This document shows positions 1 through 64,000 of a stretch of DNA of 64,000 bases, piece after piece. Source of the DNA: Cymodocea nodosa. Its lineage: Eukaryota; Streptophyta; Magnoliopsida; Alismatales; Cymodoceaceae. Both the position numbers and the translations under genes were made by a program. The notes below the pieces were generated by a model. It ran no database searches, was not told where the DNA came from, and saw only the letters and a list, made by a program, of their open reading frames with translations. Position 1 is the stretch's first letter; every line of letters starts with the position of its first letter. The stretch covers positions 4,670,001 to 4,734,000 of the forward strand of contig JAZBRI010000010.1 of NCBI GenBank assembly GCA_036874045.1, in the 5' to 3' direction.

Positions 1-199
1 TCCACTTCTTCACGTCTTCTCTTTTTCCTTCATCGAAATACACACGTTCTGACCCATGTTTACATTTCAAATTTTCTTTAATCATCAATCCAAGATCTCT
101 AAAAAATTTCCTACAAAATAAACTTTCTCATCCAAAATTTTTCATCAAATGTAATAATAAATCATTACTTTAATGTTAACTAAATGAGTAACACAAGTA

Positions 200-735
200 A
201 ATATATAACTTAATGTTTCTAACTTAACGAGTTCCTCATGTACCAACTCACATGACAAGTACTATAGCTAACTCAACGAACAAAGTTCATGGTGTTACGA
301 TAACTCAACAAACCATCTCCGTGGTGTTACGATAACTCAACAAACCATCTCTGTGGTGTTACGATAACTCAACAAACCAATGATAAACAAATGTTTTTAT
401 AATAAGAATTTTACCATATGCAAAAATAACAACTTAAGTTTTATAATGCTAACCTAACGCGTTGCCTTAGTGTTCAATATAGCAACTCAACGCGCTTAGT
501 TATGTTAACTTAACGAGTTAAACATGTGCACCTCACATGATACAATATAAAATTCGTAACTTTTAATTTCACCACGTGTACAACACTAACTTAACGAGTT
601 CATCTCTTCTTTTACTCACTAACTTAACGAGTTCTCACGTGACCTATTTTAACCTTTAAGCCTCTAACTTAACGAGTTCTCACATGACCTCTATACAAAT
701 AACATTCTAACTTAACGAGTTGTATAAACGTGCAC
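200..735. repeat. Cluster of TAACTTAACG-type half-sites
   Basis: At least eight copies of a 10-13 bp motif close to CTAACTTAACGAGTT or AACTCAACGCG lie here (for example near 217, 450, 488, 505, 588, 617, 664 and 708), with CACGTG-like sites between them (near 575 and 637). The spacing is irregular. They are variants of the TAACTNNNCG half-site found across the window. By position they correspond to the cluster upstream of the F-box ORF in element A. Confidence 0.75.
291..381. repeat. Tandem repeat, 3 x 32 bp
   Basis: Three near-identical units start at 291, 323 and 355 with GGTGTTACGATAACTCAACA. Each unit contains one TAACTCAAC half-site, so this is a local tandem amplification of the dispersed motif. 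Confidence 0.9.
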
Positions 736-1209
736 TGTTCATGATACAGAAGATATAACTTTAAAACATACCATGCTTTTCAATAAAAACACATGTTATC
801 TTAGTTAAATAAGAAATTACTGCAACGAAATGACTAGTTATTAACTTAGTATAATTCCAAATCTAATACAGACAAGTATTTATATCAGCAAACTTTTTCC
901 TATATTAATTGATGTTTTTAATTTTCTTTCACAAGCAATAGTAATTGATTAAATATGATTACTTTCATTCAGCACACATCATCAAAACAAAATACTCAAC
1001 AATATTCGTCTTCAATACAGTTCTCAATTAAATCATTCTTTCACAATTACACAAATTCAAAAACATATGATGTTCAAACATTCATATATATATCGTTTAC
1101 AGTACATACAATCAAACATTTTTTAGTACAAGTAGATGAATAATACATTTTAATATTTCTTCCTAAGTTTATCTACTTCCTTCTAGAACTTTTTTAATTG
1201 TTGTTCTAA
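736..1209. other. AT-rich spacer of element B
   Basis: No coding potential is visible beyond a short chance ORF. The end adjoining 1210 matches the sequence just downstream of the post-pol ORF in element A (9060-9142). Nothing else is recognised. Confidence 0.5.
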
Positions 1210-3358
1210 TTAGTTTATACGTTCCACAGCTCCTGTAAAGTCTCTAGAAGGTCCAGCAATAGAAATAGCAGTTGTAGCATTATAATTTCTATATTCCTTC
1301 ACTGAAATGGCTCTAGATTTTATCCTCTTGGATGTCCATTTCGTGAAGTCAATTTCTTCTTCCATTAATATTGGTATTAAATCTCCATAAAATAATTTCT
1401 TTTTTGCAGACTTTATCTTTGACAGGAAGACTTGACACCAATTAACTTGAATTTTATTTACAATTGTATACATGGCCCATTTAACAAATTGACTCAGTTC
1501 AGTGTTGTAGCCATGCTCTGATAGACAGTTTTCACTAGTATAGTTGCCACCATGTGTGCCTTTCCATTTAAGTACTTCATTTTGTTAAGTATTGGCACAC
1601 TAGGGTCGATGGTGAAACATTGCTTAATTGCTTGTTCTGTCCATTCAGTTGCAGTTGTATTTTCCAAAATTGCAATGCCTTCATTTTTTAGTCCAAAAAT
1701 GTTGTGGAGAAGCTCAGGTGCTATCTGAATATTAACTTCTTCCACGTTTGCAATTAAATTTCCTTCTTCCTCTCTCAAATTTGCATAAAAATAGGGCACT
1801 AAATTTCCATAAACTACATGCCCTTTTTCTTTTGAAATAAAGTTCAGTAGGCCTTGGAATTCGAATAATTCTTTAATCTCCTCCATTCCAGTCCAATCTA
1901 CTAGCCTACTATAAATAATATCATACCCCTTTATCTCTTGATACTTGTTGTATGCTTCTTAACTCCAAAAGTGAACTTCATTTAGAATAGTCGCTTCAGA
2001 TGGGTCAAGAACTTGGATTTGTTGCTCTAGAGGGGTTTATTCTTGAATTTCTTCTTCAAGTTGCTAAGCTTGTTGTTGTATTTCTAGTTGAAAATAATCT
2101 AGAGATTCCTACTCTTTTACTCTGAATTGTTGTGGAGAGCTTGCAGAACATTCCACATTTTTATCTTAAATTTTCTCCATAAGTTGTTGAAGAGTTTCAT
2201 TTTCTTCAAAGGAATCTATCGAATCCTATTCTTCTTGTTCAGCTTCCTACTCAACTTCTTCTTCCTCCTAACTACCAATCTACATTGTTACTATTCTTTT
2301 TGATTTTGTGGCAGATTGGGATGGAGTCACGGGCACAGTATATTCTACCCTAACTTCAGTTTCTAATATTTGTGCAATCTGCAGACTAATTTCAACCTAT
2401 TTTTCTTCTTTTCTTTTCTTTTACTACTGCTGCTCCTGCTTCTCCTTAGATTTAGATAGCAGATTAACAAAAATGGGCTCTTTAGGCCCTATTAATAGTA
2501 TAGGCTTAGATTTAACTATCTCCTCAGCCTTAGGCACTTTTTCTTTTCCTTTTCTTCTAATTAGTTGTGCCTATTCTTCCTCTTCTTCCTCTAAGACTAA
2601 GTCTATAAAACTGGGCTCTCCAAGCCCTTGAGCCATAGGTACTAGCTCTTCCTACTTAATAGTTACTCGTTTGGAAGGACCAACTTCAGTTTCTCTTGCA
2701 GCTAGTGATCTAGTTGCTTTAGAATGTTGTTCTACTTTAATTTTATACTAGGCCTTCAACCTATCTTTGGCCCTTTTCTTGTAGAGTGCATCATACAATA
2801 AATGTGTTTTTGCCACAGCCATATCTTCAGAATTTCCTTGGCTCTTGGCAACTTTAACAAGCTTTGCGAATTCTCTCCATTCTCCTAGCGTCGATGGCCC
2901 CAAAAATAATGCTCTTTCTAACGACCTTGGTAGTGGAATGGATGATCCTAGTTGCTGTTCCTCAGTTACAGGTTTTCAGTAGCCGACTCTTCAGCAGCAG
3001 GTTCTTTAGCTGCTTTCTTTTGTTACTCAATTTCCCACCAAGCATGTCTAGCAATATATCTTACAAACCACAGTTGTGACTTGCGCTAGATCAACTCTAG
3101 GGCAACCTCATTGTTTGGTCTAATTCTCCTTTCTCTATTTATAATCATTTCTATTGCTACTTTGATTCTTGTTTCTACTATTTGAAGTATTCTAATAATT
3201 AAATCAACCAAAACTTTTCTCTAGTAGAAAATATCAGATTCTACCTTTTCTAATTCTTTCTCTCATGTCGTGTTTTTGATCTTTTGTTGTGTATGCCATT
3301 CCTCTAACTCCTTGAGAAATCTTATAATGTCAACTACTTCCCAGAATTCTAGTGTCAT
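1210..3358 (-). pseudogene. Post-pol ORF of element B (plant transposon-protein domain), broken
   Basis: Degraded homologue of the ORF at 9143-11303. The likely original start is the ATG at 3358 (MTLEFWE, against MTPEFWE in A). The N-terminal third is charged and helical, the middle is acidic and low-complexity, and the C-terminal third (1210-1960) holds the recognisable domain: ELFEFQGLL, YANLREEEGN, LLHNIFGLKNEGI, LNGKAHMVATILV, KKLFYGDLIP. Many in-frame stops and shifts lie between 1960 and 3358. The C-terminal domain resembles the family annotated as 'putative plant transposon protein'. Its position after integrase matches the env-like ORF of Athila elements. The molecular role is unknown and this copy cannot be functional. 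Confidence 0.75.
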
Positions 3359-3540
3359 CTTGTATCTTTGTGGTGTTACAGAATGGAATGAAACAGAACA
3401 ATTTTGATCTCTACTATTCTAAGTTCTAAATGATTTCTACGGATAATGCCCCCAAATCTTGAGTTTTAGTATAAATAAACCCCAAGTTTTTGGCGAGTAA
3501 TCAGGTCATTTTCCTGCGCAAACTCTCGCTCTCTCACTCA

Positions 3541-3690
3541 CTTCTCTGTGGAGTTACAGTTAACTCCACGAACTAAGTCTATGGACTTAACTACAGTACT
3601 CTGTTGAGTTATTGTTAACTCAACGGAGAAAGTTCGTTAACTTATCCTAGACTCAACAGAGTAAGTTCGTTGAGTTAAGCTTAACTCAAT
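3541..3690 (-). promoter_or_regulatory. Dyad cluster upstream of post-pol ORF (B)
   Basis: Three inverted-repeat dyads are seen: GTGGAGTTA-CAGT-TAACTCCACG, GTTGAGTTA-TTGT-TAACTCAACG and CGTTGAGTTA-AGCT-TAACTCAATG, each with a 4-nt spacer. They lie 180-330 bp upstream of the ORF start on the minus strand. The equivalent position in element A (11475-11570) has the same arrangement. A promoter or enhancer role is inferred. Confidence 0.55.
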
Positions 3691-4240: not shown

Positions 4241-4245
4241 GCCAG
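4241..4245. repeat. Target-site duplication of element A, left (GCCAG)
   Basis: GCCAG directly abuts the TG terminus of the left LTR and is repeated at 18829-18833 directly after the CA terminus of the right LTR. A 5-bp duplication is standard for LTR retrotransposons. Confidence 0.88.
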
Positions 4246-6563
4246 TGTTTGGGTTTTCCCAGCACTACACTAGAAAAACTTGGATTTGTTACTTCTATTT
4301 TTACTTAGTTAATTTATCTTTATGCCAATTCTTTCTTTTAGAAGTAAACAAACAACCTTTAATACAATTTAGATATTAATTCCAATTTGTACTTTAATTG
4401 CAAGTGCATAGTGTCTATTGTATTAGTGTGCAAGTACAGGTCGATTTCACAGGGAATTGATGACGAATTTAAGAACTGTTCTTTTGTTAACAATCAAATT
4501 TATATATTCAATAAGTTCTCCGTTGACTTATAGTTAACTCAACGGACTAAGTTCGTTGAGTTATGGCTAACTCAACGGACTATCCTCGTGGACTTAAGTT
4601 AACTCCACGAGCCTGTCTCTTCTTTATAATATTGCCATTTACAGAGGAATTCGGCCAACCATTGGACGATTCCACAGATTGTAAATAACATCAATTAAGC
4701 TTTTTAATGCTAGTTAACATTGGATTTATCATTAAGCAATACTAACATTCAGATGATTCAAATAGTAACCATTAAAATCTTTAAGTCTTTTGTACGAACC
4801 AATTTCAGTAAACTGTAAAATTAAAACTAACATAAAATAATCACAAAACCGATACAGATAACATTAATCACGATACAACACAAACAATACAACACTCAAA
4901 TACAACATACAAACAAAGATAAATTGTTTTTGGTATTTTTGTTTTGATGTGAACATGGAAATGGGCGAAAGGTGAAATGTAAAGTAATCTCACTTGATAG
5001 TAAATACTTTCGACACTACTTGCAACGTGATTACACTACTGAAAATTAAACCACTTACAATTCTGTCTCCTCTTCCTATAGAATCGCGAGTCCAGAATTG
5101 CAAGATGATCTCCTCTTCAACATACAGGCATCAACCCAAAGCTAAGGCTAAAAGCTTTACGATCTCCTGAAATATGAGTCGGCGCTTGGTGAAAATGGCT
5201 TCCCTTCCCGCGACGCGATCACTCCTCACAGTGGTTGTCAAGCACTGTGTTTGGTTTGGAATCGACCCGACATCAGGCAAGTATCCTCACAGACCTCCAA
5301 TGGTTGGTGATTATGGTGGTGATGATGGTGGTTGGTGTGGTACTTTAGAGAATTGCAACGTCGATCCTCCTCTGCACACACTGACCTTCCATCGATCACA
5401 CCCTTCTTCTTTTTTTCTTCTTTTCTTTTATATTTCTTTAGTAGTAACTGCTTCTTCTTGAATGATCGGTTCGATTTCCTTCATTCATATCAACGACGAT
5501 GCTTCCATCTCCTGCACGATAAGTGCAAACGTGGTTTTTCCTTCCAACTGTCCTGTTTCTGCAACCGCTATAGTGGCATATTAGAAAATATATAGTCCGT
5601 GGAGTTATAGATAACTCAACGGACTTTCTTCATTGATTTAACTATAAAACACGTGCATAAATTTAACTATTCGATACTCAGGTGCATTTCGGATACTTAT
5701 AAACTTAACTATCCGATGCTCAGATGCATTTCGGATAGTTACAATTAACTCACTGATATATAAATTAAGTAAATCTACCAGATCTCGACACGTGTCAGCA
5801 ATAGTTTAATCATAAAATAACATTTCGGAGAGTTATAGGTCTAACTATCCTATGCTGAGATGCAATTTCGGATAGTTATAGATAACTCACTAAAAATCCA
5901 CTTAAGTCACTTACCCAGAACATGACACGTGCCCTTAGCTATTTTATAAATAAAAAGAGATTTCAGAGAGTTACAGGGATAACTATCTGATGCTCAGCTG
6001 CAATTTCAAAGAGTTACAGGGATAACTAACTGTATATGCACGTATTTCATTAATACAGATGCAATAAAACCCCAATCTCATATAATCCTGCTTCTATCAT
6101 TTACTAAAAATATGAATCCATAACAATAAGCTCATACTTTATCTGTAGTTTAATAAGATCTACACAAATTATTCTACAAGTTCAATCAGTCAAAGTAAAT
6201 GTATCTTTCATCATATGTGTTTCATTTAATCTAGAATTCACATCTCAGCTCCTTTAGGACTTCAGATAATTTTCTGATTAAGCATTAAGTATTCGGATTT
6301 CATTTTAAAATCGTGAAACTGTTAAACACATGAAATTCAGAAAAAAAACATAAGATACTATATCTAGATTTACATAAATAATAAATTCTATAGCATCTTC
6401 TATAGCCTTCTAAATATAACATTCAAGCAGTTTATAAAAATTTTACAGTCACAATTATTGGATAGTTATAGCAAGTTCATAAAAATTTTCAATTTCCTCA
6501 AAACTTTGTAGTACCATTTTAATTCCTTTAATTAACAAACTTACATGGCTATTACTTTAATTA
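4246..6563 (-). repeat. 3' LTR of element A (left)
   Basis: 4246 to about 6030 matches the right LTR closely: TG terminus, proximal dyad cluster at 4510-4610, GC-rich patch at 5174-5400 and the G-box/dyad array from 5600. From about 6030 to the polypurine tract at 6564 the sequence is unrelated to the corresponding 420 bp of the right LTR, which starts TGTTTAGAATG on the minus strand. The two LTRs of one insertion should be identical, so this end was replaced or rearranged afterwards. The inner boundary at 6563 is inferred from the purine tract. Confidence 0.75.
5600..6035 (-). repeat. G-box/dyad tandem array in 3' LTR of A
   Basis: Units of about 135-140 bp each hold an ACACGTG site (near 5648, 5788 and 5923) and dyads such as CGGATAGTTA-CAAT-TAACTCACTG and CGGAGAGTTA-TAGGTC-TAACTATCC. 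It is colinear with 18001-18640 and inverted relative to 49174-49610. Confidence 0.8.
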
Positions 6564-6573
6564 CCTCCCCCCC
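6564..6573 (-). other. Polypurine tract of element A
   Basis: The run CCTCCCCCCC on the plus strand is a 10-nt purine run on the element's sense strand, lying just inside the 3' LTR, where the plus-strand primer of reverse transcription is expected. The match is positional. The adjoining LTR start is not the canonical TG. Confidence 0.5.
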
Positions 6574-7227
6574 ATACCTACATTTTGCATTGTCCTCAAT
6601 GTAAAAGATTTGACAATAAATACAGTAATTGTAGCAGGCATGAATAAAGTTTTGTTTGATTTAAAATTCAGGATAAGTAATTGGTTACATACCTTGTTCC
6701 ATTTGTATCTCCTTCTGCATATTTCGATTTTTGATTCTGAAAAACTTTTCATTCCTAGATAAACACAGAATATAAAACAAAATAACATTTAACAGATATT
6801 AATAAATCAGTGTCTTGTGTGGAACCCAGGCTTCTATGCCTTTGGTAGCTCACAAGCAAGCTAGTTGGTTTCCCAAAACAGATACCAACAAACTAGATTG
6901 ATATTTTGTTTTGTTTTGTTTTTTTTTTTATAAAATGAACATGAAAACTTCAAAATTCCTTTTTTTTTCTTTCTAAAAATAAATGCAGAATACACAACAT
7001 TAAACACACAAAATCACATCTTAAGAACATGATTGAAAAGTAGAAACAAATGGAATAAATGTATCAGTCCAAGCAAACTTTTTAGGCATAGTTCTTCTTG
7101 CAATTAATTCTGTTTTAATGCAGTTCTTGTTCCTTCTTAATTTGTAAACATGCAATATATTATAAATTCCAAATACGAGTGTATTACCATTAATGATATG
7201 TAATGCAGAAAGGGATCCTTTTTGGTT
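6574..7227. other. Spacer between F-box ORF and polypurine tract
   Basis: AT-rich, with T-rich runs near 6905-6930 and 6960 and no ORF of substance. A GC-richer stretch at 6813-6890 resembles nothing else in the window. It could be the 3' flank carried with the F-box gene, but nothing proves this. Confidence 0.4.
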
Positions 7228-8154
7228 CTAGGGTAATGTAGCAGTTTCTATTTCTACATCTATTTCAATATACTCCTCTTCCCACTTCCATTCATTAATG
7301 TCTTCCATAATCCATATTTGAAATTTCATCAGTTCATCCCACCATCTTATCAGACATAAAGTAGGATCATCTTCTTCATTATACCACATTCCTATTTGAA
7401 TTTCATTAAATTCTACAGATGGTGGTTTAGCTATTTCACTCGATACAGGTAAAATTTCTATATAATCATCATAACTGTCTATGCTCACTATGTATAGATC
7501 AGATCCATATGCTAATGATATCTTTGTTACTAAATATATATATCTATCAAGTATGACATGTGTTTGGTTAATTAATGATTTCTGTCCTAGATATATTATA
7601 ATGTTTTCATTCCAAGATCTATTTAGAAAATTATACACACTTAAGCGTAAATCTTCACCCCAATTTCCTGTAGGTCTCCAATAATATAATTTTTCAGGAA
7701 TTGCAGAATTTTTATTAGAGAATATTAAAGCTAACCCACAATTTACAGTTGGTGCTTCAAATCTATTAGGTCTTCCTATATTCCATTCTTCTCTTGTTAT
7801 AGGATTTCTTATCAAAATATCAGGTAATAATAAACTTGCATACCTTGGTCTCGTCTTGTATCTGATTAATCCTTCATCTTTCCCCATAATATGATTTATT
7901 CCTTCTAATGCATTTGGTGGAATTCCAGTAGTTTCTTCCATAGCTAGATATTCATGTGTATTTGAACTACGATTAAATGACCTCCATATGAATCCATCTC
8001 TAATCTTAGTCATTTTTGCAGCTTGTAGTCCCTGAAAATATTTTTCTTCAATATAGTCTTTAATTTCCTTTGATACACAACACAGCCTACACAGATCTTT
8101 AGCTGACAAGTTACTTAGTACTTCCTTTAGTGCATCCAACGGTAATTGCATCAA
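7228..8154 (-). CDS. F-box protein, intact 308-codon ORF inside element A
   Basis: Uninterrupted ORF. Residues 3-40 form an F-box: LPLDALKEVLSNLSAKDLCR, then a CCVSKEI segment and the usual short link to a hydrophobic residue. F-boxes bind SKP1 and so bring targets to SCF ubiquitin ligases. The rest (about 95-300) has the spaced Trp/Tyr and 'W-M-E-D...W' endings of plant F-box-associated domains, which bind substrates; I do not see clear kelch or LRR repeats. The length fits small plant F-box proteins. It lies in the element's sense, between the post-pol ORF and the polypurine tract, has no visible intron, and has a dyad cluster 340-500 bp upstream. The surrounding pol has stops while this ORF has none. 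Captured host gene is the simplest reading. The substrate is unknown. Confidence 0.85.
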   Translation of the reverse strand: MMQLPLDALKEVLSNLSAKDLCRLCCVSKEIKDYIEEKYFQGLQAAKMTKIRDGFIWRSFNRSSNTHEYLAMEETTGIPPNALEGINHIMGKDEGLIRYKTRPRYASLLLPDILIRNPITREEWNIGRPNRFEAPTVNCGLALIFSNKNSAIPEKLYYWRPTGNWGEDLRLSVYNFLNRSWNENIIIYLGQKSLINQTHVILDRYIYLVTKISLAYGSDLYIVSIDSYDDYIEILPVSSEIAKPPSVEFNEIQIGMWYNEEDDPTLCLIRWWDELMKFQIWIMEDINEWKWEEEYIEIDVEIETATLP

Positions 8155-8492
8155 TTCTATTTGTCAATTCAGTTTGAAGCTTTCCATTCTATAAATATTT
8201 GTTGTCGGATGAAGTTGAATCAGTTGCTTCTCCTTCCAGGTCCTCCAATGCCTTCTCCTTTCTTTTAAAAGTGCTGGTAACTCGTAAATAACATTCTGTT
8301 TCATATATATATTGCATATCCATAAAGTGAATAAATCTCGTTGCAAGAACGTGTCTTGCAACGTGCATTGTGGTTCCTATTTTTATGGGTACATGTACCA
8401 CTACTAATTTCAAATTTTGGTAACCGCTAAACCGACGAAGTTTCGTTCATGGTTAAAAGAATAATCGTTCTGCTTAATCCATGAACTAACCT

Positions 8493-8650
8493 CGTTGAGT
8501 TACAGATAACTCAACAGAATACAGTCAGTTACTGTTGCTAACTCCATGGACTAACTTCGTTGAATTACAGATAACTCAATGGAGTGACCTTATATTATAT
8601 TATTGACCTCGTGGAGTTACGGTTAACTCAACGGACTTACTTCGTTGAGT
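8493..8650 (-). promoter_or_regulatory. Dyad cluster upstream of F-box ORF
   Basis: Three dyads are visible: CGTTGAGTTA-CAGA-TAACTCAACA, CGTTGAATTA-CAGA-TAACTCAATG and CGTGGAGTTA-CGGT-TAACTCAACG. All have 4-nt spacers, and a single half-site CGTTGAGTTA follows at about 8642. They stand 340-500 bp upstream of the F-box start codon on the same strand. Promoter function is inferred from repeated position upstream of other ORFs in the window. Confidence 0.55.
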
Positions 8651-9142
8651 TAACACTTAGCAACTTCTAAGTTTTACTCTCGTAAGTTCCTCTCTGTTCT
8701 TTTTTTTTTTCTTTGTCATTCTGCTAATTGTAATAAAGTTAAATCTATGTCATTAATGCATCATTTTGATTAAAATTCATTTAAATCTAAATCTTGTATA
8801 GAGATTTAACTTGCAAGTCATTTTATGTTATGCAGAATTTACATTTTACCTTATAATATGTAGAAATTTTTAAGTAGTTACCTTGTCATTCAGCAAATTG
8901 TAAATCTATTACATATTCATTCATAAAGTTCCACGATAACATAATATTCAATATATTCCATTCATTTCACATCCAAAACACGTATGAAAATTGCATCTGA
9001 AAAATTTGCATTCATTAATATGAATCAATTACAATACAAGTACATCATACAATTTCATACAACTTAACATAAGTAGACGAATCAATACAATTTAATCTCT
9101 ATGCCTAAGTTTATCTACTTCCTTCTAGAGTTTTTCTAATTG
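8651..9142. other. AT-rich spacer in element A
   Basis: No ORF. It contains a T-rich run at 8700-8712. From about 9060 it matches the sequence beside the post-pol ORF of element B. Nothing else is recognised. Confidence 0.45.
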
Positions 9143-11303
9143 CTACTCTAATTGATTTATCCTTTCTACTACTCTTGAAATTCCTCTAGAAGGTACAGCT
9201 AGTTCTGTAGCTACAAAATTCCTGTATTCTTTCACTGAAATGGTTCTAGATCTAATCCTTTTTGATGTCCATTTAGTGAAATCGATATAGTCCACCATCA
9301 GCAATGGAATCAAATCTCCATAAAATAATTTCTTCTTCATTGTTTTCAACTTGGAGATAAAAACTGCAGACCAATTTATTTGGATCTTATTTACAACTGC
9401 ATACGTGGCCCATTTGACAAATTGACTTAATTCTATGTCATGGCCCTGTTGTTGATAGACATTCTTAATCAGAATGTTAGCTACCATGTGTGCTTTACCA
9501 TTTAAATGCTTCAATCTGTTTAATAATGGTACACCAGGATTGATAGCTAAATAATCCTTAATTTGTTGTTCAGTCCATTCAACTACAATTGTATCTTCCA
9601 AAATTTTTATTCCTTCATTCTTTAAACCAAAAATGTTGTGGAGAAGCTTTGGTGTTATCTGTACATCAGTTTCCTCCACGTTTGAAATTAATCCTCCTTT
9701 TCCTTCTCTCAAATTAGCATAAAAACAGGGCACTAAATTCTCATATACTACATGCCCTCTTTCTTGAGATATAAATTACAGTAGACCTTGGAATTCAAAT
9801 AGATCTTTGATTTCTTGCATTCCATCCCAATTTACTGGTCTACTGTAAATAATATCATAACCCCTTATTTCTTGGTATTTAGTATAAGCTTCTTGACTAC
9901 TAAAGTGTACTTCATTCAAAATTGTTGTTTCAGTTGGGTCAGGAAGGTGACTTTGTTGCTCCTGAGGGATTTGTACTTGATTTTCCTCTAGCATAGGCTG
10001 CATTTGAACATTCTCTTCAGATTCCTGAATTTTTGCTTTTGCTTCTATCAATGGTGGTGAGCCGGCAGAACTCTCCACTCTGTCTTGAATTCTTTCCATA
10101 AATTGCTGAAGAGTTTCTTGCTCTTCAGTGGAATCTGTGAAATTATTTTTGTCCAAATGGCTTCTTTCAACCTCTTCATTTTCTACTCTTTCTTCTTCCT
10201 CCTGACTACCAATCTGTTCTGTTAATGTTCTTTCTGATTCTGTAATAGATTGGGATGGAGTCACGGGCAATTCAGTTTCTACCCTAATTTCTGTTTCTTC
10301 TTGTACAGGCTGCAAACTAATTTCAGCCTAATTTTCTTCTTTTCTTTGCTCCTCCTACTCCTCAGAATCGGATAGTAGGTTAATAAAAATCTACTTCACA
10401 GGCCCTGTAAAAATTGTTACTTCAGATTTAATTTCTTCATATTCAAGCACTTTTTCTTTTCCTTTCTTTCTTTTGATTAGTTGTGCTTGTTCTTCCTCTT
10501 CATCTTCTGAAATTAAATCTACAAAAATAGGCTCTGCAAGCCTTCGAGCCACAGGTACTGGCTCTTCCTGTTTAATTCTTCCAATAATTGCTAGTCTCAG
10601 AGGACTAGCTTCTCCTACAGCACTTGATCTTGATTTAGTTGCTGCCTGATATTGTTCAACTTTTATTTTGTATTGGGCCCTTATCCTTTCTTTAACCCTT
10701 TTTCTCTTAATGGTATCATATAAAATATGTGCCTTAGCTGTAGCTATTTCTTGAGTATCACCCTGGTCTCTTGCTGTCTTGACCAGGCTAGTAAATTCTT
10801 TCTCTTCTTCTTCAGTTCTCGGCCAATGCAACTCGTGGCAATGGTTCTGTTGGTTGAACTTAAGGTACTGACTGCTATTCCAAAGGAACAGGTCTTTCAG
10901 CAGTTGGTTCCTCCTGTTCTTTAGTTGCCTCTTCTTCATTTTCTTTCCTTTCTTGCTCCCAGATCGCCCATTTAGCTCGTCTACAGATTCGTCTTTTGAA
11001 CCAGAGCTGGGACTTACGTTGGATTAATTTTAGGGCTACTTCATTGTTTGGCTGTATCTTTCTTTCTTTACTTACAGCTATTTCTGTTGCTATTCTAATT
11101 CGTGTTTCCATTATTTGAGGTATTTGTATACCCAAATCTACTAAATCTCTTCTGAAATTGAAAAGTTCTGATTCTACATTCTGTAGCTCTTTCTCTCTTG
11201 TTGTATTTCTGATCTGCCGCATGTGCCACTCTTCTGATTCCTTCAGAAATTCTGATGTATCAACAGCCTCTTCCCAGAATTCAGGCGTCATCTTCCTTAT
11301 CAT
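9143..11303 (-). pseudogene. Large post-pol ORF of element A (plant transposon-protein domain)
   Basis: About 700 codons, read in three pieces: 11303-10875, 10939-10391 (shifted frame) and 10315-9143 with a TAA near 9775. The start is likely the ATG at 11303 or 11291 (MTPEFWE); the longer upstream reading begins with GTG. The N-terminal third is charged and helical, the middle (10000-10500) is acidic and Glu-rich, and the C-terminal third holds the conserved block: DLFEFQGLL, FYANLREG, LLHNIFGLKNEGI, LNGKAHMVANIL, GHDIELSQFVKWATYAV, KKLFYGDLIPLLM. It lies where Athila elements keep an env-like ORF. No signal peptide or transmembrane segment is evident. Related copies: 1210-3358 and, in copia D, 33480-35916. 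Confidence 0.75.
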
Positions 11304-11474
11304 GGAGTTACACAACAACACAGAACCGCTCTGATTTCTACTGTTCTAGATTCTAAATGATTTGCCGGATAATGCCCCCAAAACCCTAGGTTTTAGGTTA
11401 CTAAGTTTAAGCGGGTAATCGGGTCATTTCCCGAACCAACTATTACTATTTTATCCGCGGTCTTAGCTACAATA

Positions 11475-11570
11475 CTCCGTTGAGTTACAATTAACTCAAC
11501 GGAATAAGCTCGTTGACTAACTCTAGACTCAACGAAGTAAGCTCGTTGAGTTAAGCGTAACTCAACGAAC
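11475..11570 (-). promoter_or_regulatory. Dyad cluster upstream of post-pol ORF (A)
   Basis: Dyads CCGTTGAGTTA-CAAT-TAACTCAACGG and CGTTGAGTTA-AGCG-TAACTCAACG, plus single half-sites between them, lie 170-270 bp upstream of the ORF start. This is the same position as 3541-3690 in element B. Confidence 0.55.
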
Positions 11571-11629
11571 TCCCCATACAAGCAAATATAATAATAAAAA
11601 TATTACAGAGAATAGTTTTTCTATTTTTT

Positions 11630-11810
11630 TACTAGTTTAACCGATACTATGTTTCGGTCAGACCTAAATATTTTTTATTTTTTTATTTTTCTTTCAGTTG
11701 AACTGGTACTATGTTTCAGTAAAACCAATATTTTTTCCTGAAAATTAATATACAATTTTTTTAATGTTCCGGTCATACTGATGGATCTAGTTGGTTGAAC
11801 CACAACTATT
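11630..11810. repeat. Diverged ~60 bp repeats with TTCGGT core
   Basis: Three units near 11637, 11695 and 11765 pair a TTGAACYGRTACTATG segment with TTTCGGTCAGACC-like segments and AT tracts. They correspond to 3750-4050. The block lies between the integrase stop and the post-pol ORF promoter region. Confidence 0.6.
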
Positions 11811-11881
11811 TTTATGTTTTATATATATTTTTAATATTTTTTTATATATATATATATATAAACATAAAAACTGATTTCTTA

Positions 11882-13543
11882 CTAAGTAAAGCTCGAGTAG
11901 TCCTCTACTCTGACTTCTTCTATAATTCCAAAGGAGCTTTTTGGTGTTTTCAGAATAGGTTTAAGTCTTTGTCCATTTACTTTAAATATATTCTGATTTT
12001 TAGGATTTTCAATTTCAATAGCTCCATAAGGATAAACATTTCGAACTATGTAAGGTCCTACCCATCTAGATCTTAATTTTCCTAGATGGTTATGGAGTCT
12101 AGCCATATAAAGATATACTTCTTGTCCTATTTCAAAGCTTTTAGGAATAATTTTTCTATCATGCCAGAATTTAATCTTTTCTTTTTCTCTTACAGTATTC
12201 GAATAAGCTTCATTTCTAAATTCTTCTAATTCAATTAGTTGCATTTTCCTATTTTCAGCAGCTTGATTTAAATTAGTGTTCAAAGTTTTTAATTCCCAAT
12301 AAGCTTTATGTTCTATTTCAGCACGTAAATGACAACTTTTTCCATATATTAGCCTAAAAGGTGACATACCTAAGCTCGTTTTATAAGCAGTTCTATAAGC
12401 CCGAAGTGCATCTATCAATCTATTAGCCCAATCTATTCTAGTAGGATTTACTACTTTTTCCAAGATTAATTTAATTTGTTTGTTTGCACTTTCTACTTGT
12501 CCACTTGTTTGCGGATGATATGATGTTGCAATTTTGTGGTTTACTCCATATTTCTTCATTAAGGCTTCAAAACTTCTATTACAGAAATGAGTTCCTCTGT
12601 CACTGATAATAGCTTTAGGTATTCCAAATCTGGCAAATATATTTATTCTTATAAATTGTATTACCACTTTGTTATCATTAGTTTTTGTAGGAATAGCTTC
12701 TATCCATTTAGATACATAATCCACCCCCAACAATATGTAATTAAATTGATTAGACATAGGAAATGGACCCATAAAATCTATTACCCACACATCAAAGATT
12801 TCAACCTTAACAATAGGATTAAGAGGCATCATATTCCTCTTTGATATTCTTCCTATTTGTGGACATCTTAAACAATTTAAGCAATATTTATGAGCATCTT
12901 TGAATAGTATTGGCCAATAAAACCCACATTGCAGAATTTTTGTAGTAGTTTTCCCTGAACCAAAATGTCCTCCACAAGCTTGGTCATGACAGAAAGACAA
13001 TATGCTCAAATATTCAGTTTCTGGAACACACCTCCTTAAAACCAGATCAGGACATTTCTTAAATAAGTATAGGTCTTCCCAATAGTAATATTTTACTCTT
13101 GAGAAAAACAATTTCTTATCCTGTCTATTCCAATCCTTAGGCGTTAAACCAATAACTAAGTAATTAACTATGTCTGCATACCAAGGTATTGTGTTGATGG
13201 TCATTAATTGTTCATTAGGAAAACTATCCTTAATTTCAATATTTGATTTTTCTATTTGTAATCTTGATAAATGATCTGCTACTACATTCTCACAACCTTT
13301 TTTATCTTTAATTTCTAGATCAAATTCTTGCAATAATAATATCCATCGGATCAATCTAGGTTTAGTTTCTTTTTTCTTTATTAGATGTTTTAGAGCTGAA
13401 TGATCCGTGTATACTATTACTTTAGCTCCAATCAGATATAATCTAAACTTTTCTAAAGCAAACACAACAGCTAATAATTCTTTTTCAGTAGTTGTGTAAT
13501 TAACTTGAGCATCATTTAAGGTTTTGCTTGCATAATGAATCAC
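11882..13543 (-). pseudogene. pol: RNase H (C-terminal part) and integrase of element A
   Basis: Open for 553 codons and continuous with RT across one stop at about 13553. Residues 1-95 are RNase H ([25 protein letters not shown], ending VADHLSRL). At 180-225 is the H2C2 zinc finger ([10 protein letters not shown]...CLNCLRC). The integrase core shows D in VIDFMGPF (about 257), D in ISDRGTHF (about 313) and E in GQVESANK (about 350). Near 490 is the GPY/F module ([15 protein letters not shown]), which is typical of Ty3/gypsy. All DDE residues are present. The enzyme inserts element cDNA in the nucleus. The reading is intact here, but the polyprotein is broken upstream. Confidence 0.88.
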
Positions 13544-13555
13544 TCTAGGAGATTT

Positions 13556-14640
13556 TTATATCTTCTGTCCTAACACTGCTCCTATAGCAAAATCAGAAGC
13601 ATCGCACATTAATTCAAATGGATGGTTCCAATTAGGTGCTTGAATTATAGGAGTTGAAATTAAGCTAGTCTTAAGTCTGAAAAATGCTTCCTTGCAATTT
13701 TTATCAAAGTTAAATGGAACATCTTTTAATAGATTAGTTAAAGGTCTAGCTATCTTGCTAAAGTCTTTAATAAATCTTCTATAAAAACCAACATGTCCTA
13801 GAAATGATCTAATATCTTTTATTGATTTAGTTTTTGGTAGATTAGATATTACTTCTATTTTAGCTTTATCTACTTCCAACCCTTTTTTAGAAACAACATG
13901 CCCTAAGACTATTCCTTGTTTAACCATGAAGTGACATTTTTCCCAATTTAAAACCAGATTTTTTTCCACCCAACGTTTTAATATTTGGTCTAAATTGCTT
14001 AAACACACTTCATATGAGTTGCCATATACAGTAAAATCATCCATAAATATTTCTAAAAAATCGTCAGTCATTCCAGTAAATATGCCCTACACACACCTTT
14101 GAAAGGTAGCTAGTACATTGCATAATCTGAATGACATTCTTTTAAAAGCATAAGTTCCATTAGGATAGGTGAAAGTTATTTTCTCTTGATCCTCTAATGC
14201 TACTGGAATTTGATTATACCCTGAATACCCGTCTAGGAAACAAAAATATTCTTGCCCTGCTAATCTTTCCAACAGTTGATCTATAAAAGGTAAGGAAAAA
14301 TGATATTTCCTAGTCACAGCATTCAGCTTTCTATAGTCTATACATACTCTCCAACCTGATTGAATTCTAGTAGGTATCAAGTCTTGACTTTCATTCGTAA
14401 TAACTGTTAATCCTAATTTCTTGGGAACTACATGAATTGGACTAACCCACGAGCTATTAGAAATTGGATAAATTATATCATTATCTAACCATTTAACTAT
14501 TTCTTCCTAACTACTTCTTTAAGGTTTGGATTTAATCTCCTCTCAGGAATTCTAACAGGTTTAGCATTCTCTTCTAAATATATGTGGTGACCGCATAAAG
14601 TTGAACTTAACCCTTTTATATCAGTCATAGTCCATCCTAT
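13556..14640 (-). pseudogene. pol: Reverse transcriptase of element A
   Basis: Ty3/gypsy RT in order: the N-terminal EIVKWLDNDIIYPIS and SPIHVVPKK region, GWRVCIDYRKLNAVTRK, FCFLDGYSGYNQI (catalytic Asp), FKRMSFRLCNV, and the catalytic FMDDF at about 14045. These are followed by VLGHVVS, the connection domain and the start of RNase H (MCDASDFAIGAVLGQ). Breaks: a frame problem near 14510, a TAG near 14085 where element G has Gln (RCMQGIF), and a stop at about 13553. The catalytic residues are kept, so decay is recent or mild. Confidence 0.87.
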
Positions 14641-14682
14641 TGCTTCTTCATAACTTTTTACTACATCTTTTAATTTAGCTAT

Positions 14683-15552
14683 TTAATCCTCTTTTAAATC
14701 TGAAGTAATAATGATTGGACAGGTCCGTTTATCTTCTAGAAATATATAGGTTAATTCAGGAGGTAAAGGTTTTAATTCTAAATGCTGCCCATCAGAAGCT
14801 AGAGCTCCTAATTGAACATCATCATTTTTTAAATTAATTTCTTCCCGATCTCCTTTTATATTTATGCTTTCACTTTCTTCTAAAGTTTCAGAATTGATTT
14901 GCCTATTTAATTCTTCTTGAATCACAACATCTAACATATCTCCTTCATCCTCTAAAAAGTCTATGGTATGTAAGGACATTTCTAACTCCTCAAACCTTTC
15001 TAGTTTGAAAATATTTAATTGAGTATCATCATTACCATATGCTAACTTCATTACTCCAATTTTACAATTTATAATAGCCCCTGATGTTGCTAAAAATGAC
15101 ATTCCCAAAATTAAAGATGTATCACTATTTTTATGCTTAATTTGTTGGGAATCCAAAATTACAATATCAATAGGATATATAAAATTGTTGATTTTAATTA
15201 AGACATCCTCTATTTTTCCTCTAGGGTATCTTATACTTCTATCAACTAATTGAATAACCGTACTAGTAGGAGTTAAGCCTTTTAATCCTAAAGATGCAAA
15301 TATATCACTTGGCATAACATTTATACCTGCACCTAAGTCTATTAAGGTTCTTTCTAGAATGGTATTTCCTATGGTGCATGATATAATAGGGATTCCAGGA
15401 TCAGATAACTTTTTAGGAATTTGTGGTAGAAATAGGGAACTACTTTGCTCAGCTAAAAAAACCTCTCTAAGAACTTTTCGCTCTCTTTTCTTAGTACACC
15501 AATCCTTCAGAAATTTAGCACAAGGTGGCATATTCTGCAATAAATCTAACAA
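14683..15552 (-). pseudogene. pol: Gag C-terminus and aspartic protease of element A
   Basis: Open reading of 289 codons. It begins within the gag/protease linker (PPCAKFLKDWCTKKRERK, conserved in B and F). The retropepsin core is at residues 60-175: TLIDLGAGINVMPSDIFASL holds the catalytic Asp in a DLG context, as usual for this plant lineage. After it come the flap region, YPIDIVILDS and SLILGMSFL. An acidic linker to RT follows (about 190-260). The true polyprotein starts upstream. Stops near 15620 and 15890-16045 disconnect it from gag, and a TAA at about 14681 from RT. Confidence 0.82.
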
Positions 15553-15559
15553 ACGAATG

Positions 15560-16527: not shown

Positions 16528-16631
16528 ATTCTCAATTACAGAAGAAAACACACAACTCTAGCTTTTAAAACAAAATAGCTCTAACAGTTACTTATATTAA
16601 TTCAATTCAATTCAATTCACTTCAATTCAAT

Positions 16632-16649
16632 TCCTCGGCAACGGTGCCA
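16632..16649 (-). other. Primer-binding site of element A (tRNA-Asp type)
   Basis: On the minus strand TGGCACCGTTGCCGAGGA begins 7 nt inside the 5' LTR. It matches the 3' end of plant tRNA-Asp(GTC) at 16 of 18 positions. The same 7-nt spacer (AGTTTTA) separates LTR and PBS in element F. Confidence 0.88.
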
Positions 16650-18640: not shown

Positions 18641-18828
18641 TGCAACTTACCAACAATTCATAAATGTACTAAATTAACATTAATTCCCTAAAATTAAGCA
18701 GATTCTTCAATTAAAGCATATAATAGTGCAATTATAACATAATGGCTTAATTCTCATATGATAAGCTAAATATTATGTAATTAACCATGATTTAACTGTT
18801 AATAATATGCACTTTTTCATTCTAAACA

Positions 18829-43146: not shown

Positions 43147-43148
43147 GT

Positions 43149-48847: not shown

Positions 48848-49173
48848 TGTTTAGAATGAAAAAGTGCATATTATTAATGATTAAATGATGGTTAATTGCA
48901 TAATATTTAGCTTATCATATGAGAATTAAGCCATTATGTTATAACTGCACTGTTATATGCTTTAATTGAAGAATCTGCTTAATTTTGGAGAATTAATGTT
49001 AATTTAGTACATTTACGAACTGTCGGTAAGTTATAGGCTGTGAAATTCTTAAGTATCCGAATTTTCTAATATTTTAGACAGTTATGTTTAATAGACCGAA
49101 TATGTATCGGATAGTTATGTTTAAATTGCCGAATAGTTATGTTTTGAGAGAATATTTTATTATTTCCAGATGT

Positions 49174-49610
49174 ACACGTGTCGAAACCAGAATGAATGTC
49201 TTAAGTGAACTTTCGATGAGTTATCTATAACTATCCGAAATTGTAGCTGGGCATCGGATAGTTATCCCTGTAACTCTCCGAAATCTCTTGTTATTTATAA
49301 AATAGCTGAGGACACGTGTCATGTTCTAGGTAAGTGACTTAAGTGGATTTTTGGTGAGTTAGCTGTAACTATCCGAAAATGCATCTAAGTATCGGATAGT
49401 TAGACCTGTAACTCTCCGAAATCTCTTTTTATGATTAAACTGCTGTTGACACGTGTCGAGATCTGGTAGATTTACTTAAGTTATATATCGGTGAGTTAAC
49501 TATAACTATTCGAAAATGCATCTGAGCATCGGATAGTTAAGTTTATAAGTATCCAAAATGCACCTGAGCATCAGATAGTTAGATTTATGCACGTGTTGAA
49601 TTTAAATGCT
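49174..49610 (+). repeat. 138-bp tandem array of G-box and alternating N4/N6 dyads
   Basis: Three units. CTTAAGT marks stand at 49200, 49338 and 49476 (period 138), and GACACGTGTC-type sites at 49174, 49311 and 49449, with a fourth CACGTG near 49594. Each unit has an N4 dyad (for example GGTGAGTTA-GCTG-TAACTATCCG) and then, 15-20 bp on, an N6 dyad (CGGATAGTTA-GACCTG-TAACTCTCCG). In element order the spacers run 4, 6, 4, 6, 4, 6. Confidence 0.9.
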
Positions 49611-50754
49611 TTAGAATATCACGTGAGATGCACATGTTTAACTTGTTAAGTTAGCATAACTGCACGCATTGAGTTACATGAATATACACTAAGGTAACGT
49701 GTTATGTTAGCGGCTTATTTCTTTATTGCATGTCTTTTATAGTTATTTTCCAAAATGCCACTGTAGCGGTTGTAGGAACGGACAGTTGGAAGGAAAAACC
49801 AAGTTTGCACATATCACACAGGAATTCAATCGCGTAGGGAGAAGGAAGCATCACCGTTGATCTGAAGGAAGGAAATCCAACCGATCATTCAAGCAGAAGC
49901 AGTTACTACTGAAGAAATATAAAAGAAAAGAAGAAAAAAAGAAGGTGTGATCGATATGTGATCGATGAATGGCTAGTGGTGCAGAGGAGGATCGACGTCG
50001 CAATTCTCTAAAGTACCACACCAACCATCGTTATCACCATCATCACCACCATAATCACCAATCATCGGAGGTATGTGAGGATACTTGCCTGATGTCGGGT
50101 CAATTCCGAGCCAAACATAGTGCCTGACAACCACTATGAGGAGTGATCGCGTCGCGAGAAGGCAAGACATTTTCACCAAGTGCCGACTCATATTTCAAGA
50201 GATCGTAAAGCTTTTAGCCTTAGCTTCGGGTTGATGCCTGTATGCTGAAGAGGAGATCATCTTGCAATTCTGGACTCACGATTCTATAAGGAGAGGAGAC
50301 AGAATTGTAAGTGGTTTAATTTTCAGTGGTGTAATCGTGTTGCAAGTAGTGTCGGAAGTATTTACTGTCAAGTGAGATTACTTTACATTTCACCTTTCGC
50401 CCATTTCTATGTTCACATCAAAACAAAAATACCAAAAACAATTTATCTTTGTTTGTATGTTGTATTTGAGTGTTGTATTGTTTGTGTTGTATCGCGATTA
50501 ATGTTATCTGTATCAGTTTTGTGATTGTTTTATGTTAGTTTTAATTTTATAGTTTACTGAAATTGGTTCATACAAAAGACTTAAAGATTTTAATGGTTAC
50601 TGTTTGAATCATCTGAATGTTAGTATTGCTTAATGATAAATCCAACGTTAACTAACATTAAAAAGCTTAATTGATGTTATTTACAATCTTTGGAATCGCC
50701 CAATGGTTAGCCGAATTCCTTTGTAAATAGCAGTATTATAAAGAAGAGACAGAC

Positions 50755-50855
50755 TCGTGGAGTTAACTTAAGTCCACGAGGATAGTCCGTTGAGTTAGCC
50801 ATAACTCAACGAAGTCTATCCGTTGAGTTAACTATAACTCAACGGAGTGCTTATT
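50755..50855 (+). promoter_or_regulatory. Proximal dyad cluster of LTR F
   Basis: CGTGGAGTTAACTTAAGTCCACG, CCGTTGAGTTA-GCCA-TAACTCAACG and CCGTTGAGTTA-ACTA-TAACTCAACGG, about 270-360 bp from the LTR end; the inverted equivalent of 16925-17020. Confidence 0.75.
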
Positions 50856-51126
50856 GAATATAAATTTGAATTATTAACAATTCAAACAGTTCTTAAATTC
50901 ATCAGCAATTCCCTATGGGATCGACCTGTACTTGCACACTAATACAATAGACACTGTGCACTTGCAGTTAAAGTACAAATTGGAATTAATATCTAAATTA
51001 TATTAAAGGTTGTTTGTTTACTTCTAAAAGAAAGAATAGGCATAAAGATAAATTAACTAAGTAAAAATAGAAGTAACAAATCCAAGTTTTTCTAGTGTAG
51101 TGTTGGGAAAACCCAAACAAGTTTTA

Positions 51127-58882: not shown

Positions 58883-59926
58883 TGTAGGATCGTCTGTATC
58901 TCAAGAGGGGGGGTGAATTGTGTCTTTAGTAATTAAACTAGCGGAGAAAACAAGAGCACAAAACACTCATAAATGAAATTCTATTCTTTTATTTCAAGGT
59001 AGAATTTACAATATCTTTTCAGCTCAATTCCCTTCTTGACGGTTTTGATACAGTAATTTTTTTGATATACAATTCAAATAGGAAAACAAAGCTCTTTTTC
59101 AAAACTAATTTTGAATTGTATAAAACCTGATCTTTATGCACACAACTCTTTTCTTTCTCTTTGCTTAGCTTTTGTATCTCTTCTTCTCTAGTTGTCAAAT
59201 TTCCAGCATTCTTGCATTTGCTGCTCTTTTTCTAAAATTGCTTGGAATTTCGAACTTCTTCTGATGTTGGAGAATTTTTCCGAATATGAATATTCAAATT
59301 TAACTTTTCTGTTAGGAATCCAGATTGAATATTCAGACTTGGTTTTTGAGATTGGGATCCCCTATTGTAATGTAACTCGTACTCTCTATTAGTAGTCGAA
59401 CTTTGTTGTCTTTCACGTTCAGCATGTTCATCCACTTGATCCACAATCCATAATCCATAATCCACGTACTAATTTTCTCTTTATTCCAAATTACTTTCTA
59501 TTTAAATTTCCACTTTCTTCACTAACAATTTGAGTTTCCACGATCTCCACTCGTAGATTCACCGAAACTTTATCTTCTTGGAGTCTTGCAGAATATCTTC
59601 TATGTCTTTGATTTAGTCGAACATTTATCCTTTAACTCCTATCAAAACTCGAACACTTATCCTTTAACACTTCGAGTTTTTGCACCTGCAAAACACGTGA
59701 CTAAACAAGAAAACTTATCTGTTTGTTAGTCCTTTTATAAAACTTGAATAGTTATCTATCCATGCGTATAAAAACTCAAACAGTTATCTAACTATTCGAT
59801 TTTTCATTACCGAATGCACATGGAAAACACGTGACAACTTAAAACATTAAAAACACACGTGTAGATAACTTAACTATACGAGTTTTTAACATAAAGTATT
59901 CGACAAAAATGAAACGTTAACTATCC
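58883..59926 (-). repeat. 5' LTR of D2, truncated
   Basis: Inner end TGTAGGATCG at 58883; follows LTR D to 59926 and then breaks in the middle of a TAACTATCC half-site. About 160 bp of the outer end is missing. Confidence 0.87.
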
Positions 59927-62273: not shown

Positions 62274-62294
62274 TCTAGGAGATTTTCCTATCTT

Positions 62295-63470
62295 CTATCC
62301 CAGCACTGCTCCTATAGCAAAATCAGATCCATCGCACATTAATTCAAATGGATGGCTCCAATGAGGTGCTTCTATTATAGGAGTTGAAATTAAGCTAGTT
62401 TTAAGCTTGAAAAATGCTTCTTTGCAATTTTTATCAAAGTTAAATGGGACATCTTTTAATAGATTAGTTAAAGGTCTAGCTATTTTGCTAAAATCTTTAA
62501 TAAATCTTCTATAAAATCCAGCATGTCCTAGAAATGATCTAATATCTTTTACTGATTTAGGTTCTGGTAGATTAGAAATTACTTCTATTTTAGCTTTATC
62601 TACTTCCAACCCCTTCTTTGAAACAACATGTCCCAAGACAATTCCTTGATTAACCATGAAGTGACATTTTTCCCAATTTAGAACCAGATTTTTTTCCACA
62701 GAATGTTTTAATACTTGGTCTAAATTTTTTAAACACACTTCATATAAAGTTCCATAAACAGTAAAATCATCCATGAATATTTCTAGAAAATATTCAGTCA
62801 TTCTAGTGAATATGCCCTGCATACACCTTTGAAAGGTGGCTGGTGCATTGCATAATTTGAATGACATTCTCTTAAAAGCATAAGTTCCATTAAGACAGGT
62901 GAAAGTTGTTTTCTCTTGATCCTCTAATGCTATTGGAACTTGGTTATATCCTAAATACCCGTCTAGGAAATAAAAATATTCTTGTCCTACTAATTTCTCT
63001 AGCATTTGATCTATAAAAGGTAAGGAAAAATGATCTTTCCTAATTACACCATTCAGCTTTCTATAGTCTATACACACTCTCCAGCCTGATTGAATTCTAG
63101 TAGGGATCAAGTCCTGACTTTCATTCCTAATTACTGTTAATCCTGATTTCTTGGGAACTACATGAATTGGACTAACCCATGAGCTATCAGAAATCAGATA
63201 AATTATATCATTATCTAACCATTTCACTATTTCCTTCCTGACTACTTCTTTTAGGTTTGGATTTAATCTACTCTCAGGAATTCTTACTAGTTTGGCATTC
63301 TCTTCTAAATATATGTGGTTATAGCATAAAGTTGTACTTAACCCTTTTATATCAATCATAGTCCATCCTATTGCTTCTTTATAAGTTTTTACTACATATT
63401 TTAATTTAGCAATTTGATCCTCTTTTAAATCTGAAGTAATAATGATTAGACATGTTCGTTTTTCTTCCAA
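62295..63470 (-). pseudogene. pol: Reverse transcriptase of element G
   Basis: 391 codons uninterrupted, the best RT in the window. It begins at the protease/RT linker and carries VRKEIVKWLDNDIIY, SPIHVVPKKSG, GWRVCIDYRKLNGVIRK, FYFLDGYLGYNQV, the substrate-site AFKRMSFKLCNAPATF and the catalytic FMDDF, then VLGHVVSKKGLEVDKAK and the RNase H start (MCDGSDFAIGAVLG). Catalytic Asp residues are present. A stop at about 62293 separates it from RNase H. Confidence 0.88.
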
Positions 63471-63512
63471 AAATATATAGGTTAAATCAGGAGGTAAAGG
63501 TTTTAATTCTAA

Positions 63513-64000
63513 CTATTGTCCATCAAAAGCTAGAGCTCCTAATTGAACATCATTAATTTCTTCTTGATCTCCTTCTACATTTACGCTTTCACTTTCTTCT
63601 AAAATCTCAAAATTAAGTTGCCTATTTAATTCTTCTTGAATCACATCATCTAGCACATCTCCTTCATCCTCCAAAAAGTCTATAGTATGTAAGGACATTT
63701 CTAGCTCTTCAAACTTTTCTAGTTTAAAAAGGTTTAATTGAGTATCCTCATTACCATATGCTAACTTCATAATTCCAATTTTACAATTTATAACAGCCCC
63801 TAATGTTGCTAAAAATGGTCTTCCCAAAGTTAAAGATGTATCACTATTTTTATGCTTAATTTGTTGGGAATCCAAAATTACAATATCAATAGGATATATG
63901 AAGTTTTTGATTTTAATTAAGACATCCTCTATTTTTCCTCTAGGGTATCTTATACTTCTATCTGCTAATTGAATAACAGTCCTAGTAAGGATTAAGCCTT
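63513..64000 (-). pseudogene. pol: Protease of element G, incomplete at window edge
   Basis: The C-terminal half of the retropepsin (DSQQIKHKNSDTSLTLGRPF, LATLGAVINC) and the acidic linker read openly from 63875 to 63516. A stop near 63514 cuts it from RT. The catalytic Asp would lie just beyond position 64000. Confidence 0.78.

Follow-up and report, generated by a model that had tools for sequence, protein, structure and literature searches.

A variable-middle half-site recurs in Athila and Sirevirus-like copia retrotransposons of Cymodocea nodosa

The window analysed here is a 64-kb stretch of the genome of Cymodocea nodosa (contig JAZBRI010000010.1), which holds long terminal repeat (LTR) retrotransposons of two superfamilies, Ty3/gypsy and copia. 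A short word with a variable middle, TAACTNNNCG, recurs in their LTRs and internal spacers in clusters, often as inward-facing pairs, or dyads (Table 1). An earlier note on this DNA had drawn attention to this word as a degenerate half-site dispersed through unrelated elements. L numbers below denote comparison sequences.

Table 1. Elements, open reading frames (ORFs) and half-site clusters in the window
Feature	Coordinates	Strand	Basis and details
Athila (Ty3/gypsy) element A, 14.6 kb	4246-18828	-	self-alignment, end sequences, Pfam
Class-A array (arms ending ACG, 33-bp steps), Athila A 5' LTR	16946-17020	none	site scan, cluster grouping
Mostly class-C array (arms ending CCG), Athila LTR	17998-18536	none	site scan, tandem repeats
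Two spacer-4 dyads upstream of Athila extra ORF	11478-11567	none	homologous cluster 3561-3677
Athila extra ORF	9143-11023	-	three pieces: 10391-11023, 9776-10327, 9143-9775
Cluster of 4 sites upstream of F-box ORF	8493-8652	none	site scan
F-box ORF inside Athila A	7228-8163	-	Pfam F-box 38.9 bits, cut-off 20.5
Second Athila LTR	48848-51119	+	19 strict sites; TGGCGCCGTTGCCGAGGA directly after
Copia element, Sirevirus type, 12.6 kb	31793-44354	-	self-alignment, end sequences
5 sites in copia 5' LTR	43929-44191	none	copies 32572-32787 and 59789-59880
9 sites upstream of copia extra ORF	36024-36683	none	site scan
Copia extra ORF between pol and 3' LTR	34007-35476	-	C-terminal similarity to Athila Transposase_32 fragment
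Third LTR family, copia H	46433-47872	+	sites 46621-47070; TGGTATTAGAGCC directly after
TAACTTAACG-rich cluster, 8 sites, 7 in one orientation	220-717	+	site scan

Athila element A is flanked by the target duplication GCCAG (4241-4245 and 18829-18833); its 5' LTR spans 16657-18828, and the left 3' LTR is homologous to it over 4246-6054 only. ORFs of the element match RVT_1, RT_RNaseH, rve and Integrase_H2C2 in Pfam, and its gypsy-type reverse transcriptase (RT), RNase H and integrase are joined by an extra 3' ORF of Transposase_32 type, whose last piece scores 22.8 bits, below the cut-off of 45. We take the primer site of element A to be of Athila type, as we do the word TGGCGCCGTTGCCGAGGA behind the second Athila LTR. 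Copies of the class-A array lie at 4535-4609, 50756-50844 and 24726-24754, and the class-C array (copies at 5598-5878 and 49024-49666) sits within 136-138-bp tandem repeats carrying CACGTG and CTTAAG. The copia element is bounded by the target duplication AGCCT (31788-31792 and 44355-44359), with a 3' LTR at 31793-33011 and a 5' LTR at 43149-44354. Besides a copia pol and a long pol-LTR linker with an ORF, it has a polypurine tract, AAAAAGGGGGAGATT, and an iMet-type primer site, both read from the sequence and presumably Sirevirus characters. A relative of copia H at 22237-22870 also bears sites. The TAACTTAACG-rich type of cluster recurs in L006 (9308-9945), L011 (5668-6348) and L020 (3185-3952), mostly in one orientation and together with CACGTG; no named element was matched as owner to these three or to the copy in the window.

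A scan of both strands of the window found 108 strict copies of TAACTNNNCG, against means of 2.5, 2.8 and 3.4 and a maximum of 7 in Markov simulations of orders 1-3 (40 per order). Among all patterns of the form 5-N3-2, it ranks first by enrichment; the gap of exactly 3 is strongly enriched, and other gaps from 0 to 15 yield 0-22 matches. Over the whole genome (375 Mb in 28 contigs) the word occurs 339,840 times (170,931 forward and 168,909 reverse) and its reversed control 38,911 times (19,537 and 19,374), a surplus of about 300,000 copies. Eighteen 10-kb comparison stretches, whose positions were chosen by hand and not at random (two of the 20 positions requested do not exist), hold 163 sites and 10 controls. 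Chance or base composition as the source of the excess was thus ruled out by the simulations and the genome control. The recurrence claimed by the earlier note turned out to be larger than it had stated, and the comparison with composition-matched sequence, which it had proposed as a check, came out far on its side. As for the regions it listed, clusters are present at 200-735, 3541-3690, 8493-8650, 11475-11570 and 36190-36700, but position 45190 has no strict site, none starting between 44182 and 46621. After CG (108), the commonest endings of the pattern in the window are TG (37), CA (33), TA (32) and AA (30); the share of TG and CA is weakly compatible with CpG decay. Four further sequences, L001-L004, were fetched for holding dyads. 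They enter the count of coding overlap and the arm test on 69 distinct dyads described below, and are left out of the arm test on the 18 stretches, the CpG and CACGTG proximity analyses, and the CTTAAG and cluster-grouping counts.

The half-sites pair with a strict preference in spacing. Genome-wide, there are 46,143 inward dyads with a spacer of 0-20, against 18 for the control, and the dyad CGTTGAGTTA-N4-TAACTCAACG alone occurs 8,305 times, against none. Inward pairs in the window have spacers of 4 (13 pairs), 6 (5), 7 (3), 2 (1) and 3 (1), and none at 0, 1, 5 or 8-35. Among the matches listed, all from contig 1, every one of 83 dyads has a spacer within 2-7: 4 (41), 3 (16), 6 (14), 5 (7), 2 (4) and 7 (1). 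The two dyads quoted in the earlier note are both present, one at 4554 and 16965 and the other at 49393; the spacers 4 and 6 that it singled out are both frequent, although 2, 3, 5 and 7 occur as well. A strict partner exists for 46 of the 108 half-sites in the window, and an AGTTA-core partner at spacer 2-7 for 67 (chance 0.018). Spacer-6 dyads with TTTACG arms were seen at G000 C1:416685-416710 and C1:2064725-2064750.

The two arms of a dyad agree in class rather than in full. Whole NNN arms are identical in 7 of 23 window dyads (null 6.6), in 6 of 28 from the 18 stretches (null 5.2), in 24 of the 83 listed (null 20.2, P 0.13) and in 22 of 69 distinct dyads (null 21.5); shuffling the last set within spacer and class leaves no excess of identity (22 observed, 27.8 expected). 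Taken base by base and regardless of spacer, the 62 distinct dyads among those listed agree between arms at the position beside CG in 52 cases (null 28.3), at the middle variable base in 35 (null 25.1, P 0.006) and at the first in 29 (null 24.4, P 0.10). G is scarce throughout the variable middle (27, 6 and 4 of 398 at successive positions). Because of this class-level agreement near CG, two arm classes can be recognized: one ending ACG, mostly at spacer 3-5, and one ending C/TCG, mostly at spacers 4 and 6. The co-variation of arms reported earlier therefore survives as agreement in class, chiefly at the base beside CG, and fails for whole arms, whose identity stays at chance level.

These results bear on the hairpin signal that the earlier note offered as an alternative, taken here to mean dyads acting as hairpins in RNA or single-stranded DNA, for silencing or replication. 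Palindrome clusters in maize Sirevirus LTRs are reported to draw an excess of small RNAs (Bousios 2016, as related in part of PMC10760457), and the agreement of arm classes within dyads would suit such a role. Since whole arms do not co-vary beyond the class difference near CG, however, selection for hairpins is unlikely; moreover, for 41 of the 108 half-sites in the window not so much as a core partner stands at spacer 2-7, and the core is constrained as a sequence (see below). The hairpin proposal is disfavoured by the arm-identity tests and was not supported, and we regard it as the least probable of the explanations considered. Two classes of arms short of full complementarity fit protein half-sites better.

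The sites avoid coding DNA. None of 320 falls in the 62,282 bp of retroelement coding matches, and all lie in the remaining 193,814 bp, in LTRs of Athila and Sirevirus-like copia and upstream of most of the extra ORFs tested. Internal clusters mostly precede two kinds of ORF, the Transposase_32 ORF of both superfamilies and the F-box ORF. A cluster precedes the Athila extra ORF in all three testable copies (the window twice and L020), and the copia extra ORF likewise in three of three (the window, L008 and L017; L014 starts too near its ORF to be counted). Of 11 Athila-type loci, 10 carry sites beyond the end of Transposase_32 in the direction of the F-box ORF, and the more distant L033 and L035 (33-34%) have sites nearby too. 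A genome search for the F-box ORF gave 6,467 first-look candidates; scoring covered 127 of them, comprising the copy in the window and 126 at 90-94% identity, many of them free of internal stops. Sites lie within 900 bp upstream, in two arrangements, in 21 of 21 F-box ORFs (20 picked from the 127 scored, plus the window); in the L006 copy at 3-495 they lie at 565-623. The F-box ORF occurs both in Athila A and in a second, different context (L006 3-495 and 6834-7763; L036 3097-3429); that it modulates silencing or defence is speculation. The idea that the Athila extra ORF keeps a conserved stop for readthrough was rejected, the stop of the window copy being shared by none of the other 20 in-frame copies; L034 also has a stop near the junction of the extra ORF, out of register. 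Among distant copia elements, L009 (32% to the window RT) is free of sites for 1.5 kb around its RT match; a cluster at 9052 in the same sequence groups with copia H. Near another (37% to the window RT), seven sites cluster at L010 3663-4171, about 470 bp ahead of an ORF; the cluster groups with no other and possibly marks a further lineage bearing the site.

Across 11 Athila spacers that are 68-90% identical, identity in the TAACT core (51 sites) is 0.980, a value reached in none of 5000 bootstraps, against 0.906 in the flanks and 0.886 farther off under equal conditioning; the alignment of repeated words may itself flatter the conservation of the core. Unmatched conditioning gives 0.980 against 0.824 and 0.787. 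The alignment leaves aside L025 (no sites), L020 (too short) and L023, L033 and L035 (too distant). The rate of change in the core is thus about one fifth of that around it.

Two other words keep company with the half-site. Near sites, CACGTG occurs 52 times (1.2 expected; 25 of 50 clusters), CTTAAG 71 times (6.9 expected; 27 of 50 clusters) and ACTTAAGT, the longer form of CTTAAG, 48 times (0.7 expected). All 25 copies of CACGTG in the window stand no more than 97 bp from a site, and 27 of 38 in the 18 stretches no more than 108 bp. For CTTAAG, 26 of 45 copies in the window and 46 of 94 in the stretches have a site within 120 bp; sequence this close to a site makes up only 13.6% and 9.3% of the total, respectively. 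Genome-wide, CACGTG followed at 5-35 nucleotides by a site occurs 27,879 times, against 875 for the control. CACGTG and CTTAAG share their modules with TAACTNNNCG. The former is the G-box, a target of host bHLH and bZIP factors. The modules are also rich in CpG: with the CGs of the sites excluded, the observed/expected ratio is 0.81 within 50 bp of sites and 0.42 at 800-1600 bp, and in element coding DNA it is 0.19; the corresponding ratio for GpC is 0.80-1.07. Long-term preservation or renewal of CpG in active copies would account for this gradient, but so could selection on CpG-bearing words alone.

How the two superfamilies came by the same modules was approached by removing sites, CACGTG and CTTAAG before cross-alignment. 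The masked class-C array of Athila still aligns with the array upstream of the copia ORF (z 21), so the sharing is in part the result of sequence exchange. The stretch 36357-36812 before the copia extra ORF is 72.6% identical to the Athila LTR array. Other masked comparisons gave little: z 1.4 and 3.5 for Athila with copia H, 0.0 for Athila with the copia LTR, and a weak 4.6 for the copia linker with the copia LTR. Clusters fall into eight masked groups at E 1e-8 and four at E 1e-3, the largest at E 1e-8 joining Athila and copia LTRs through such linking alignments. Descent of all copies from one recent LTR, which the earlier note had named as fatal to its idea, is not what these groups indicate, though they number only four at the coarser threshold, and independent acquisition of modules by elements is probable. 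The 136-138-bp tandem unit is itself common to the gypsy LTR (18106-18467 and 49200-49539) and the copia linker (36362-36612), at 70-79% identity.

Repeat modules could also have spread by recombination and hitch-hiking with no shared function, a possibility to which the strong masked alignment, the merging to four groups and the sheer number of copies lend something. We hold it to be quite improbable, however, given the eight groups at the stricter threshold, the strict dyad spacing, the roughly five-fold constraint on TAACT, the two arrangements before the F-box ORF and the avoidance of coding matches. The half-site is real, strongly non-random, constrained and, by position, regulatory.

We therefore propose a mechanism in which TAACT-N3-CG(R)A would be the half-site of one sequence-specific DNA-binding protein, often bound as an inward-facing dimer with a spacer of 2-7, mostly 4 or 6. 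Together with the G-box and ACTTAAG(T), it would form promoter or enhancer modules, both in Athila and Sirevirus-like copia LTRs and before the internal Transposase_32 and F-box ORFs, so that gag-pol and accessory genes would answer to the same input. Exchange of tandem-repeat blocks between superfamilies accounts for part of their spread, and independent gain probably for another part. Judged from sequence features, binding of TAACTNNNCG by one protein in modules of both superfamilies is the probable reading, as is activation of the modules, with a host factor likelier than an element product. The suggestion of the earlier note that a common factor reads one site in two superfamilies, in a form unlike a fixed palindrome, is thus supported as the best explanation.

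Several observations weigh against this proposal. One Athila-type locus, L025, lacks sites, and the more distant L023 (24%), the best match to Transposase_32 and one above the cut-off, has none within its 3.5 kb. The CG of the sites decays as fast as other CGs (0.726 and 0.740), and upstream of the F-box ORF (20 copies and the window) the core stands hardly above its flanks (0.926 and 0.900). The CpG ratio climbs again, to 0.53 beyond 1600 bp and 0.73 beyond 3200 bp, perhaps from admixed gene DNA. No known plant factor was matched to TAACTNNNCG. One F-box copy (L006 6834-7763, 76% identity) lacks sites over the 1.5 kb upstream of it, and TATA-like strings occur inside as well as downstream of clusters: at 352 and 857 in the copia 5' LTR, at 366 and 1033 in its 3' LTR, and at 904 and 1370 in copia H. 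The L006 exception and the positions of these strings slightly temper our confidence.

The protein might instead be encoded by the elements, most simply by the Transposase_32 ORF, which would activate or demethylate its own kin as VANC does. At its end the copia linker ORF bears a domain akin to that of the Athila Transposase_32 fragments (44% over 98 amino acids near its C-terminus, with further similarity of 36-39% over 169-194 amino acids). That ORF is thus common to both superfamilies and stands behind clusters in both, the arrays are tandem, as VANC targets are in the part of the published account available (PMC5735166), and the CpG gradient around sites would suit such an activity. Furthermore, seven of eight stretches without retroelement coding matches hold 0-1 sites (two in total, against four controls; the eighth, L007, holds 32), and hence there is no sign of use by host genes. 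Against an element factor stand the absence of sites near L023, the lack of a DUF1985 match at E up to 1 in seven fragments, a predicted structure of one fragment too poor to use (pLDDT 41), and the company of CACGTG, which suggests host factors. By analogy with VANC, an element-encoded factor is conceivable, though we find it rather unlikely. A fuller version, a common anti-silencing or activation circuit in which the shared Transposase_32 protein would read TAACTNNNCG dyads in LTRs and internal promoters, elements would be mutual helpers, and the F-box protein would come under the same switch, is more doubtful still. A protein database search with P0003 returned 186 candidates, none at E 0.001, and Rfam and tRNA scans gave no matches. 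If one factor does read TAACTNNNCG, gypsy and copia elements would be linked in their expression, and one protein would be enough to activate or silence both; the variable-middle half-site is a concrete, testable candidate in this genome.

A limited literature search turned up no link of the Transposase_32 domain to the Sirevirus linker ORF, and in a text search for four motif strings all titles among the matches listed were unrelated. Several known systems share features with the one described here, to the extent that the parts of the accounts available allow comparison. VANC targets are short motifs, YAGTATTAY for VANC21 and AGTTGTCC/AGTTGTAC for VANC6, in tandem arrays in non-coding DNA of VANDAL DNA transposons that also carry an accessory ORF (PMC5735166). 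Short motif, tandem non-coding arrays and accessory ORF are found here as well, but in retroelements, with another motif and with no DUF1985-bearing trans factor found. Retand/Grande-type elements have a long region between pol and the 3' LTR, with an extra ORF and often tandem repeats, and gene23 of Grande has its own upstream promoter (PMC11963269, PMC7264820). The long region and extra ORF recur in the window; the ORFs of Retand/Grande are mostly antisense and of Transposase_28 type, whereas those here are sense, of Transposase_32 and F-box type, and linked by a common half-site. Sunflower Athila also has a Transposase_32 ORF 3' of pol, with a predicted nuclear signal (PMC11728184); the available part of that account describes no cis motif, and here the ORF has a copia relative.

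The closest likeness is to the repeated motifs (RMs) of Sireviruses, whose many palindromic copies occupy the upper LTR half and the region before the ORF in env position and are accompanied by local CpG richness; as far as the source at hand goes, they are short and element-specific, nearly all with a CGG-CCG core, and are reported to be Sirevirus-specific and to have no common binding site (Bousios 2010, PMC2829016). The elements in the window likewise have palindromic copies with CG-bearing arms, local CpG richness, clusters situated in the LTR's upper half (sites at about 164-427 bp in the 1206-bp copia LTR and at 187-637 bp in the 1440-bp LTR of copia H) and an extra cluster before the env-position ORF in the three testable copia copies. 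Unlike RMs, they share one half-site, TAACTNNNCG, in which only the CG at the outer ends is constant beside the core and no CGG-CCG core is conserved within an element, and which extends over several families and into the LTRs and spacers of Athila. Within the published description available, the layout matches that of the Sirevirus RMs; what is new is the half-site itself, its sharing with Athila, and its composite with CACGTG and CTTAAG.

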